From: Nanobdellota archaeon
Lineage (GTDB): Archaea > Nanobdellota > Nanobdellia > Parvarchaeales > Parvarchaeaceae
Direction of reading: 5' to 3'
NCBI GenBank assembly: GCA_021791655.1
Contig: JAJYWD010000007.1
Coordinates: 1-36,971, forward strand
DNA: 36,971 bases
Both the position numbers and the translations under genes were made by a program. The notes below the pieces were generated by a model. That model was not told the DNA's origin. It did not search any database and saw nothing but the letters and a program-made list of their open reading frames with translations. Below, piece by piece: positions 10,991 to 23,844 of this stretch (position 1 is the stretch's first letter; each line of letters starts with the position of its first letter).

Positions 10991-12400
10991 CTATCGTTTT
11001 CTCGGTTTTCCTGGAGATGTCAGGTTGTATGGATCGAATATCTCATCCAATTCCTTATCGGTTAATATTTTCATCTCCTTAGCCGTTTCCTTAATACTCT
11101 CCCCTTCTTTTATAGCCCTTTTTACCACTTCAGCCGCCTTTTCATATCCTATGTAAGGGTTTAGTGCCAAACCTACTCCGGGCGTCTTGTTGAGTAATTC
11201 CGCCATTCTTTTTCTATCCGCTCTTATGCCCGTTAACGCCTTTTCCGTGAGGGTTGAGCACGCGTTGGTCATAATCTTTGCACTGCCAGCCAAATTGATT
11301 ATCACTAATGGCATCATAACGTTTAATTCCAACTGGCCGGCTTGTGCGCTCAGCATAACAGCGGAGTCGTTGCCAATCACCTGAAAACACACCATGCACA
11401 CTGCCTCTGCAATGCTTGGATTCACCTTCGCAGGCATTATTGAAGAGCCGGGTTGAACGGCCGGGAACGATATTTCTCCTAATCCCGTAACAGGACCAGA
11501 ATTCATTAGCCTCATGTCATTAGTTATCTTTATGAGATCCACCGCTATGGCCCTTAGGACGGAGGAAGTCTCCAGAAAATCTGCAAGGGACTGGGTGATC
11601 TCTGGCATGAATTCGGCCTTTCTAAGTTTAAGCCCGGTTATTTTTGTGAGTTCCTCAACCATATAATCCCGATACCGGGAATCCGAGTTCAGACCTGTTC
11701 CTACGGCGGTCGCTCCTATGTTAAGCTCGGACAATTTTTCTATAGCGACTTTTATTCTCGCTTCTGTCTTAAGCACCATTCTGGCCCACGCCTCAAATTC
11801 TTGTCCTAGCCTTACTGGTGCAGCGTCCATGAGATGTGTTCTTCCGCTTTTTATTACACCGTCAAATTCTTTGGCCTTTTGCATTAATACGGTGTGCATC
11901 CTTAAAATTGTCTTATTCAGGTTATTTAGCAGAATAATCATCGTCAGGCGCATAGCCGTGGGTATAACATCATTGGTTGATTGTCCTTTGTTTACATCAT
12001 CATTCGGATGCACCATCTTATAATCCCCCTTCTTGCTTCCCAGTAGTTCTATTGCCCGGTTTGCTATGACTTCGTTTACGTTCATGTTCGTGGAAGTGCC
12101 GGCTCCCGCTTGATAAGCGTCCAGCACAAATTCTTTTAAGTGTTTTCCTGCTATTACCTCATCCGCTGCCCTCGCTATCGCGCTCGCTTTATTTTTGTCC
12201 AGTAGACCAAGCCTAAAATTCACCATTGCGGCTGCTTTCTTTACAACGGCTATTTGTGTTATGTATTCGCGAGGGGGTTTTATTTCGGAGATGTTGAAGT
12301 TACCTATCGCCCTCTGCGTCTGTGCGCCCCAGTACGCCTCCTCCGGGACTTTTACGTTGCCCAGATAATCGTGCTCTATCCTGAAATTTTTCTCTTTCAC
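10991..12400 (-). CDS. class II fumarase / aspartate ammonia-lyase
   Basis: Superfamily signature GSSIMPAKVNP, STNDVIPTAMRL, GAGTSTNMNVNEVIANRA, TGLNSDSRY. Confidence 0.93.
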   Translation of the reverse strand: MKEKNFRIEHDYLGNVKVPEEAYWGAQTQRAIGNFNISEIKPPREYITQIAVVKKAAAMVNFRLGLLDKNKASAIARAADEVIAGKHLKEFVLDAYQAGAGTSTNMNVNEVIANRAIELLGSKKGDYKMVHPNDDVNKGQSTNDVIPTAMRLTMIILLNNLNKTILRMHTVLMQKAKEFDGVIKSGRTHLMDAAPVRLGQEFEAWARMVLKTEARIKVAIEKLSELNIGATAVGTGLNSDSRYRDYMVEELTKITGLKLRKAEFMPEITQSLADFLETSSVLRAIAVDLIKITNDMRLMNSGPVTGLGEISFPAVQPGSSIMPAKVNPSIAEAVCMVCFQVIGNDSAVMLSAQAGQLELNVMMPLVIINLAGSAKIMTNACSTLTEKALTGIRADRKRMAELLNKTPGVGLALNPYIGYEKAAEVVKRAIKEGESIKETAKEMKILTDKELDEIFDPYNLTSPGKPRKR

Positions 12401-12464
12401 CTAACTTAGACAAATCCTCAAAATTTATATCTATCCCGCAAGGAGCACATTCACGATATCTGTG

Positions 12465-13709
12465 TTAAAACAGTCTGGATGATACCCCACTGCCCCTCAC
12501 TATCCCCCTCTTTCTTAACACAGCACCCACAATGGTTATCAGATTTGTAGATATTATCACGAATGTGACAAGAGGGATAAACTGGCTTGCAAGTTGAACC
12601 CCGTCCACAATTGCAAGGCTCATAAGCACAAGAGGTGTTACACCCTGCGCACACATCAGAAATATGCTAGTTTTGTCCTTGCTCAATTGCGATTTGTATG
12701 TCGATACATTTACAGCGAGCGCTCTTGCACCCAAGAGTATCAGGAGTGTAAGACCGCCAAATATAAGCGTATACATGAGATTAGAATAAGATATGTTGAA
12801 TAATAAACCAAGAAAAACGAAGAAGAACGTGGTTAAAAGAAAAGTCATTTCCCCTTGAAATTCAAACAGTCGCTCCTTAACGCCCAATATCCGTACCTTC
12901 TTTTTGAAAATGATTGTAAAAAGTTTGAAATTGCCCAGTACTACACCAAATATTAAAACTGAAAAAATTCCGCTACCCCCAAGCGCTTCGCTTATTGAAT
13001 ACGTAATCAGCAGAAGGCCAAGGGTGAGTACATATATGTGCCTGTGCCTATTCAAATTGTGCAAAATGAATATCCAGAACAAAGAGACTACCAGACCTAC
13101 GACTATCCCCGTGGAGAATGTAGAAACTAAGGAGTTAACTGCATTGTTGATATTTATGCCGGTACCTATTTGATAAATTGTAACAAAAGAAATGAATAGT
13201 ACCGCTGTAAGCACAGAATTCAGTGCCGATTCTAACATTATAAAACTTTTAGGCGACTCTTTAAAGCCCATACTCATAGCTAATGGCACTACAACCGCAC
13301 CGCTTGTCTCTCCTCCGACTATGGACCCGAATATCAGCGCCTCTATAAGTGGCCATCCAAGAAAGTAACTTAGCAAATATGCTATGATTACGGTGCTTGA
13401 TATTACGTATATACTAACTTGTGCGGCCGTGCGTCCGCTATTCGATAGCAGGGCTCTTATCCTCATCGTCATCCCTCCGTAGAAAAGCACCATTATAAGT
13501 GTAAGTGTCGCGAAGAGCGGCAATAACGGTGTAATCAGAGATGTCGGTACAAATCCAAAGACTGGCCCAATTATCACTCCAACTAGCAGTAAAAACAGTA
13601 TCGGCGGTATGCCCGTCTTCCTAAAAATCACATCACCAGCAAATCCTATAAAAATTATTATCGCTGCTATGGAAAAGCCTAAAGTGACTGGATCTACCAT
13701 ATCGATCAC
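12465..13709 (-). CDS. CPA-type cation:proton antiporter (paralogue 1)
   Basis: About 12 hydrophobic segments; GSIVGGETSGAVVVPL..IMLESALNSVLTAV aligns with the CPA TM5/TM6 core; SEALGGSGIFSVLIFGVVLGN. Confidence 0.85.
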   Translation of the reverse strand: MIDMVDPVTLGFSIAAIIIFIGFAGDVIFRKTGIPPILFLLLVGVIIGPVFGFVPTSLITPLLPLFATLTLIMVLFYGGMTMRIRALLSNSGRTAAQVSIYVISSTVIIAYLLSYFLGWPLIEALIFGSIVGGETSGAVVVPLAMSMGFKESPKSFIMLESALNSVLTAVLFISFVTIYQIGTGININNAVNSLVSTFSTGIVVGLVVSLFWIFILHNLNRHRHIYVLTLGLLLITYSISEALGGSGIFSVLIFGVVLGNFKLFTIIFKKKVRILGVKERLFEFQGEMTFLLTTFFFVFLGLLFNISYSNLMYTLIFGGLTLLILLGARALAVNVSTYKSQLSKDKTSIFLMCAQGVTPLVLMSLAIVDGVQLASQFIPLVTFVIISTNLITIVGAVLRKRGIVRGSGVSSRLF

Positions 13710-14974
13710 TGAGCTTGACTGCCAGAAGGCGGTTCCTGCTGTTTCAGCCGTTTGTAGATAGCGTTAAACCTGGCGAACATGACCCCGTTTATAAATACTG
13801 TGACAAGAATAATACTGAAAAATACTGTTATCAAAGACGGATTGAAGACGTTGTACGCCACCAGTAAAGCGGCGGAAACCGCAGCGCCAGTTCCTCTCGT
13901 CATCATCGAGGATAGGAAAAATTTGTCCACCTTGGGCGTGCTAGACCTAGCGAGCGAGGTCCACGTACCTATCTGCCTGGCTATAATTATAGTTAGTCCG
14001 ATTGCCACTCCCACGACCAAGCTGTATATGTCCTGTGGGATTACCAAGCCACCAAAATACACGAAAAATGCCGATGTTGTTATGAACGATATGAGGTCGT
14101 TGAAATATCTGGACTCCCTGTTTAAAGTGAAATACTTGTTGTGTTTATACTTCAGCAGATGATAAAGTCCCTCCCCATTGGCTATAAGGAGCCCGAAGAT
14201 TAGTGCGGCCATAGGTCCGCTTCCACCTATATCCTGGGTAACTATGTATAAGATGAAAACCACGGCTAACGAGGACACATAAGAATATTCGTATTTGTGG
14301 TGCTGCATGAACGCCATTAATGGAACCCATGCAAAGCCAAACAGCGCACCGAGTACGATAGCTGTGGAGAACTGGCCCACTATCGTAGTGAGTATGAGCT
14401 CCATATTAGTGGTGTTTAGAGCTGCGACTACTATCAGGATAAGCACAAATATTACGCTCAGCGGTTCGGTTATCATGGCCTCCAAATTTAGTAATATGTT
14501 CGTTTTCTCGTCGACCAAACGAGAAATGCTGCCAAACGGCAAGATAACCGCACTTGTCCCCCCGACAGCAAAGCCTATCAGGGCGGAATCCAGATAATTA
14601 TAACCTATGAAGTGTGTAACTATAAACACGAGCAGGACAGATGCTATGAAATTTGCAGATAACAAAAGGGAACTCACACTAATCTGCTTGATTAATTTGT
14701 GGGCGTTTAATCCCAACCCAAAATTAAACAGCACTATAGTTATTACAACACTAGCTACATCTGGCATTAACGCTAAGAATGTCCCTCTGGAAAAGAGCCC
14801 AAACACAGGTATTATTATTATACCAAGAACCATAAGCCACAAAATGTGGGTTATACCAGTTCTCTTGGCTAGCGCCCTACCTATGAAACCGGTTATGAGG
14901 ATTGCCGCTACCCCTATCATGAAATAGTTTAGGGACAGCGCATCTGCCGTCATAATCGGTAGCCCATTAACCAT
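13706..14974 (-). CDS. CPA-type cation:proton antiporter (paralogue 2)
   Basis: Multi-TM; GFAVGGTSAVILPF..LLNLEAMITEPLSVIF; TQDIGGSGPMAALIFGLLIANG; 4-bp overlap with paralogue 1. Confidence 0.85.
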   Translation of the reverse strand: MVNGLPIMTADALSLNYFMIGVAAILITGFIGRALAKRTGITHILWLMVLGIIIIPVFGLFSRGTFLALMPDVASVVITIVLFNFGLGLNAHKLIKQISVSSLLLSANFIASVLLVFIVTHFIGYNYLDSALIGFAVGGTSAVILPFGSISRLVDEKTNILLNLEAMITEPLSVIFVLILIVVAALNTTNMELILTTIVGQFSTAIVLGALFGFAWVPLMAFMQHHKYEYSYVSSLAVVFILYIVTQDIGGSGPMAALIFGLLIANGEGLYHLLKYKHNKYFTLNRESRYFNDLISFITTSAFFVYFGGLVIPQDIYSLVVGVAIGLTIIIARQIGTWTSLARSSTPKVDKFFLSSMMTRGTGAAVSAALLVAYNVFNPSLITVFFSIILVTVFINGVMFARFNAIYKRLKQQEPPSGSQAQ

Positions 14975-22821: not shown

Positions 22822-23844
22822 ATGAAACTGCTTTTTATAGGGAGATTCCAGCCGTTCCATAAAGGCCACCTTAAACTTATACGTACAATTTTGGGTAAAG
22901 ATGATAAACTCGTGATAGGGATAGGCAGTTCACAGTACTCTTTCACGGAAGACAATCCGTTCACCTCAAGCGAAAGGCGGGAGATGATAGCCTCTTCTCT
23001 TACGGCAACCGATATAAAAAACTTCAATATAGTTGACATACTGGATTTGCATTCTAACGCTAGGTGGAGTTCCCTGATTGGTAAGTTGATACCGGATTTC
23101 GACGCCGCATATACAAATAACCCGCTTGTGAAGTCGCTTCTGTCGGATAGGGGGCACACAGTACGCACGGTCGGGCTATTCGGTCGAAAAGAACTGTCTG
23201 GGACATCTATACGAAGAAAAATGAGGGAAGCCGGGGCTTGGACCAATCTAGTAACTAAGGAAACGTGCAGAGTTATAAACAAATTGGACGGTGTAAACAG
23301 GATAAAAAGTATACACGCTCAAAAAAGCCAGAGGATTTTCACCATCGGACATTCTACTAGGCCCATAAACGAGTTCATAGCATTACTAAAGGAGTACTAT
23401 ATAGACAGATTGGTTGATGTTCGTTCGATACCGCGATCGCTGCATAACCCTCAGTTTGAACAATCGGCGCTTACAAATTCGCTTTCGGGTGCTGGTATAA
23501 GGTACGTGCACATAAAAGGATTAGGTGGTCTTAGACCTTCCCAAAAAGATTCCATAAATCTCGGGTGGAGAAATTCCTCGTTTAGAGGTTTTGCTGATTA
23601 CATGAAAGAGGCGGGATTTTATCATGGGATGTCGAGATTGCTGTTCCTCTCAAAAAAGACGCGCGTTGCTATAATGTGCGGGGAGGCAGTGCCGTGGCGT
23701 TGTCACCGCTCTCTTATATCTGATGCTCTGATAATAAGAAGAATACCGGTGACACACATCCTGGACCACAATCAAACCAGAGAGCATTCTCTAACCAGCT
23801 TTGCAGTTGTTAAAGGCAATCGCATAACATATCCGACGAGTTAA
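22822..23844 (+). CDS. fusion: archaeal NMN adenylyltransferase (NadM-like) + DUF488 domain
   Basis: N-terminus MKLLFIGRFQPFHKGHLKLI..GIGSSQYSFTEDNPFTSSERREMI..SGTSIRRKM (NadM). C-terminus RIFTIGHSTRPINEFIALL..LVDVRSIPRS..NPQF..LGGLR..FRGFADYM..MCGEAVPWRCHRSLISDAL (DUF488). Confidence 0.9.
   Translation: MKLLFIGRFQPFHKGHLKLIRTILGKDDKLVIGIGSSQYSFTEDNPFTSSERREMIASSLTATDIKNFNIVDILDLHSNARWSSLIGKLIPDFDAAYTNNPLVKSLLSDRGHTVRTVGLFGRKELSGTSIRRKMREAGAWTNLVTKETCRVINKLDGVNRIKSIHAQKSQRIFTIGHSTRPINEFIALLKEYYIDRLVDVRSIPRSLHNPQFEQSALTNSLSGAGIRYVHIKGLGGLRPSQKDSINLGWRNSSFRGFADYMKEAGFYHGMSRLLFLSKKTRVAIMCGEAVPWRCHRSLISDALIIRRIPVTHILDHNQTREHSLTSFAVVKGNRITYPTS

Follow-up and report, generated by a model that had tools for sequence, protein, structure and literature searches.

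The 36,971-nucleotide stretch of archaeal DNA analysed here (the window) contains one gene that encodes an NadM-type NMN adenylyltransferase and a DUF488 domain in a single chain. The window is a contig of an 831,740-base genome that is 98.7% complete and probably belongs to Candidatus Parvarchaeum, a tiny acid-loving archaeon. The best-supported reading is that the product of the gene has two functions, combining an intact NadM with a tethered DUF488 domain that is likewise intact and probably depends on a cysteine. This is a new domain combination of an already known type of NadM fusion. We infer that both halves are active, that the DUF488 half uses cysteine chemistry and that its substrate is linked to NAD. 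The first-pass annotation of this DNA had described one uninterrupted 340-aa frame joining the two domains; our reading of the open reading frames and profile matches to both halves bore this out, and all of the motifs it had placed along the protein are found in the sequence (Table 1).

Table 1. Positions of the fused gene, its domains and motifs, and the antiporter and fumarase genes in the window
Feature	Position	Strand	Basis
Fused gene nadM-DUF488	22822-23844	+	ATG at 22822, stop codon at 23842-23844; 340 aa plus stop, no internal stops; homologous fusions in relatives
NadM-type NMN/NaMN adenylyltransferase domain, residues 1-168	22822-23325	+	NF002243, PDB 1f9a, Foldseek 1m8f
GRFQPFHKGH nucleotide-binding motif, residues 7-16	22840-22869	+	Sequence
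SGTSIRR motif, residues 126-132	23197-23217	+	Sequence
Inter-domain junction/linker, about residues 165-171	23314-23334	+	Identical length, without indels, in all fused relatives
DUF488 domain, residues 170-340	23329-23841	+	PF04343 match; AlphaFold2 model
TIGHST motif, past strand 1, residues 174-179	23341-23358	+	G176, H177 and S178 invariant in 46 rows
DVR motif, past strand 2, residues 199-201	23416-23424	+	D199 and R201 invariant in 46 rows
CGEAVPWRCHR cysteine loop, strand 4 to next helix, residues 286-296	23677-23709	+	46-row alignment, model
Fumarase (10994-12400) and antiporter (12468-13763)	10994-13763	-	Named by eye from sequence

The N-terminal half was recognized by the family profile for archaeal nicotinamide-nucleotide adenylyltransferase, NF002243, with 185.3 bits at residues 1-169 (cut-off 127), and by Pfam PF01467 with 49.5 bits at residues 4-132. 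The TIGR01527 equivalog scored 161.7 bits, which is under its stricter cut-off of 181.2. NMNAT structures were matched in the PDB (1f9a, E 3e-40; 1ej2/4yp7), and a Foldseek search returned 1m8f (E 7.6e-13). Alignment of the fused proteins showed that R8, H13 and H16 are present in all ten NadM rows that cover these sites and that S126, T128, I130 and R131 are present in 11 of 11. The catalytic residues R8, H13, H16, W82 and R131 are kept in the window's protein and in every fused row covering each site. In a salvage route to NAD, this half would be the cell's NadM and transfer the AMP moiety of ATP to NMN or NaMN. The genome encodes NadE, and there is a weakly matching NaPRT-like protein nearby, which is consistent with salvage through NadM. 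No match to an NAD kinase was found in the window's genome; we gave this absence no weight because relatives carry divergent copies that score near the cut-off.

The C-terminal half had been assigned to DUF488, and Pfam agrees: PF04343 matched residues 182-303 with 96.9 bits (cut-off 22.2), covering profile positions 2-121 of 121. In an alignment of 46 DUF488 proteins drawn from archaea, bacteria, plasmids and viral contigs, the residues G176, H177, S178, D199, R201, S206, F266, C286, E288, C294, H295 and R296 are invariant. The window's domain thus contains the family-invariant pattern GHS, D.R, C.E.....CHR. AlphaFold2 modelled the full-length fusion with a pLDDT of 85.9 and a pTM of 0.69, and the DUF488 domain alone with a pLDDT of 96.4 and a pTM of 0.91. 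A strand is predicted at residues 282-286 and a helix from residue 296, which puts C286 at the end of the strand and R296 at the beginning of the helix that follows; in the model, the invariant polar residues sit mostly at the C-terminal ends of strands. Both halves keep their signature residues and, judged by sequence, appear catalytically intact, as had been proposed. DUF488 had also been described as having no firmly established function, and the portions of the searched literature that were available assign it no activity. Three DUF488 proteins from viral contigs (L152, L153 and L158) have a Cys/His-rich stretch at the N-terminus that by eye resembles a SWIM zinc finger; Pfam gave no confirmation of such a finger in L152.

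When the DUF488 model was compared with the PDB using Foldseek, PTP-fold cysteine phosphatases took ranks 1-5, 7, 9, 11 and 17. Such phosphatases were also top-ranked among viral models, where several scored equal to or better than the sole listed DUF488-annotated protein (CampHawk, E 0.065). In both libraries these matches are weak (E 3e-3 to 6e-2, TM about 0.45). Across 41 DUF488 proteins, no Pfam model for PTPs or rhodaneses matched even at E 10, and a relationship of DUF488 to either family by sequence was rejected on this result. Because no phosphatase or rhodanese model backs it by sequence, we treat the likeness of the modelled C286/R296 site to that of PTPs as a lead. The DUF488 half would be an active enzyme, probably using C286 in a Cys-loop-Arg site like those of PTP-fold hydrolases. 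Profile searches found no solved DUF488 structure, the best matches having E 0.55 or worse. A Nudix-like C-terminus was rejected as well, there being no Pfam Nudix match.

The fusion is present in 11 of the 28 Candidatus Parvarchaeum genomes. It is intact in nine (that of the window and G001, G002, G005, G008, G010, G021, G174 and G384) and cut by contig ends in G009 and G014; the two G014 contigs overlap by 41 residues inside the gene. Full-length fusions in genomes of the genus show 47-51% identity where measured. The first-pass annotation had called for a check for an indel between the halves. Genome comparison served for this, and eight other genomes of the genus carry full-length fusions with an identical, indel-free junction. 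An assembly chimera or a missed stop between two genes is exceedingly improbable, and we rejected it: the same fusion recurs in 10 other separately assembled genomes of the genus, and we found no evidence in favor of an artefact. Both halves evolve under purifying selection, with dN/dS of 0.08-0.25 for each in those pairs whose dS is measurable. Beyond the Parvarchaeum clade, no NadM-DUF488 fusion was found in 371 genomes of the phylum. None was found in 84,980 species scanned with one peptide pattern (K/R/Q-R-x-F-T-I/V-G-H-S-T/N), which other such fusions could escape, and no description of one was found in the available portions of the literature searched. Besides its cut fusion, G009 contains a second, strongly diverged NadM-like gene (G009:C5:3576-4022).

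A tree of NadM sequences places all 11 fused proteins in a single clade (support 97/88), next to seven unfused NadM proteins from Parvarchaeum. The fused domains do not form one clade in the DUF488 tree, where the window's domain groups with stand-alone proteins and not with the other fused ones; a single clade of fused DUF488 domains was not rejected (AU p 0.128). The NadM clade and the identical junction argue for a single event, and the fusion probably arose once, in one Parvarchaeum clade. Two independent fusions are disfavored on the same grounds, together with the AU result. The sister clade keeps nadM and DUF488 as separate genes, and in four unfused genomes (G012, G013, G016 and G020) the order is antiporter, nadM, fumarase, with the flanking functions assigned by eye. 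There is no nadM between the antiporter and fumarase genes of the window, and the two are only 67 bp apart. The site has thus been vacated, and nadM now lies fused about 10 kb away. The gene would have left the antiporter/fumarase site and then joined DUF488 once, in the ancestor of one Parvarchaeum clade. In fused relatives the order is FAD oxidoreductase, fusion, dCMP deaminase, usually followed by a peroxiredoxin-like ORF, with functions taken from the homologues in the window. In the window itself a peroxiredoxin gene lies directly downstream of the fusion and a dCTP deaminase gene lies upstream.

Other NadM proteins of the phylum also carry a domain at the C-terminus. This is a Nudix domain in seven proteins (five identified by Pfam, two by eye) and a CinA/PncC-like domain in three. 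Both kinds of partner act in NAD recycling, and the NadM C-terminus of DPANN archaea has repeatedly served as a docking site for enzymes of this kind. Another protein resembling NadM, about 389 aa long, ends in a region that Pfam did not match. An experimental precedent exists in COG1058-PncC: the domain joined to PncC, whose function had been unknown, was shown to be an ADP-ribose pyrophosphatase, and NadM-Nudix was discussed in the same light (Sorci et al. 2013, PMC3680494).

The first-pass annotation had taken the fusion as guilt by association, placing DUF488 in nucleotide or NAD metabolism. This remains plausible because the same NadM slot otherwise holds Nudix or CinA/PncC, and the PncC-fused precedent points the same way. 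Tentatively, the likeliest single idea in our analysis is that DUF488 acts on a nucleotide that is adenylated or linked to NAD. Its substrate would be a nucleotide linked to the NadM reaction, for instance a by-product of NAD, NMN or ADP-ribose type or some other metabolite that is adenylated, and its role would parallel that of the Nudix and PncC domains on the same end of the phylum's other NadM proteins. Repair or hydrolysis of damaged dinucleotides, which had been offered as an example, is one possibility within this NAD-linked reading. Other observations speak against the association. Only one clade within a single genus has the fusion, which probably has one origin and hence counts as a single data point. 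The DUF488 domain also persists in genomes where neither NadM nor NadE was detected, is found beside aminoacyl-tRNA synthetase genes in the sister clade, and in the 13 annotated bacterial contexts neighbors DNA-repair and stress genes.

Almost as plausible is that DUF488 has a job unrelated to NAD, the fusion being an accident of co-expression or tethering that became fixed in one lineage with NadM only as carrier. Such a job could concern damaged or modified nucleic-acid bases or be linked to translation. Five Parvarchaeum genomes (G006, G011, G015, G017 and G022; 83-91% complete) gave no NadM match and no convincing NadE match, which suggests that they have lost NAD synthesis and depend on a host; three of these (G006, G015 and G017; 83-90% complete) keep a stand-alone long DUF488. 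In six unfused genomes the DUF488 gene adjoins or overlaps a gene for a class-I W/Y aminoacyl-tRNA synthetase, and the synthetases belong to two different paralogues that are 34-39% identical. None of 13 annotated plasmid contexts has an NAD-synthesis gene near DUF488. The plasmid neighbors were DUF2945 (6/13, sometimes overlapping), MGMT (3/13) and DNA glycosylases (2/13). Among relatives, short YeaO-type DUF488 genes lie beside UDG-superfamily ORFs at three loci (two identified by Pfam, one by eye). PADLOC returned single-protein profile matches to the candidate defence systems PDC-M45B and PDC-M19A. An unrelated job fits less well with the retention of the fusion across strongly diverged genomes with both halves constrained, or with the NAD-recycling role of the Pfam-identified C-terminal partners of the phylum's other NadM proteins. 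On one Agrobacterium plasmid, two adjacent DUF488 genes lie by genes for TcmP and DUF5131 in what resembles a candidate defence locus.

It is also conceivable, but unlikely, that DUF488 serves NadM as a regulator or sensor, binding a nucleotide or sensing redox state through C286 and C294 and thereby adjusting NAD synthesis without turnover. The two invariant cysteines are compatible with this, as are the peroxiredoxin gene directly downstream and the peroxiredoxin-like ORF that most fused relatives have close to the fusion. NadR is an example of an adenylyltransferase coupled to regulatory parts. Against a sensor, the placement of the invariant polar residues at strand ends resembles an active site, and the same residues are equally invariant in stand-alone DUF488 proteins, which have no NadM to regulate. 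A more specific and rather improbable proposal is that DUF488 is a hitherto unrecognized hydrolase family, cysteine-dependent and distantly PTP-like, that clears a nucleotide by-product, toxic or dead-end, shared by the adenylate-transferring enzymes NadM and class-I tRNA synthetases. This would explain both the NadM fusion in one clade and the synthetase neighbor in its sister clade.

DUF488 has a wide distribution that takes in bacteria, archaea, plasmids and some phages, and a link to NAD may not extend to the family as a whole. For the NadM-DUF488 protein, the conserved fusion, the intact cysteine motif and the confident fold model together give a short list of candidate substrates for DUF488.

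Comparison with characterized archaeal NadM enzymes (NF002243/TIGR01527; PDB 1f9a, 1ej2) shows that the first 169 residues of the fusion match in full, with the HxGH and SGTxIRR motifs and about 40-44% identity in structural alignments. The characterized enzymes have no C-terminal DUF488, and the fusion scores below the TIGR01527 cut-off. As a member of PF04343 (long form), the C-terminal half has all of the invariant motifs and is 57% identical to a stand-alone protein from Saccharibacteria; the other members that we saw are stand-alone or have other partners, and none outside the Parvarchaeum clade is fused to NadM. The best fold matches of this half are PTP-fold cysteine phosphatases (4kyr, 3ro1/2i6i, 5z5a, 2f46), which likewise have a catalytic-type cysteine at a strand end and an arginine at the start of the next helix. 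It differs from them in the low TM, the lack of sequence support, the second invariant cysteine and the loop: the C-x5-R phosphate loop of PTPs is absent and the window's protein has C286-x9-R296, a C-to-R spacing of 10 residues versus 6.

The bifunctional NadM-Nudix proteins (PRK05379; PDB 2qjo, 2qjt, 2r5w), which Foldseek also matched, are laid out alike, with an NMN adenylyltransferase in front and an enzyme domain at the C-terminus, but their Nudix domain is unrelated to DUF488. The NadM-CinA_C proteins of DPANN archaea similarly join NadM to a C-terminal domain of NAD-recycling type, which in their case is CinA/PncC (a PncC-like NMN deamidase) and not DUF488. COG1058-PncC has no known relation to DUF488, and biochemistry was done there whereas NadM-DUF488 is known from sequence and a model. 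It nonetheless provides a precedent in which an uncharacterized domain on an NAD-recycling enzyme acted on an NAD breakdown product (PMC3680494).
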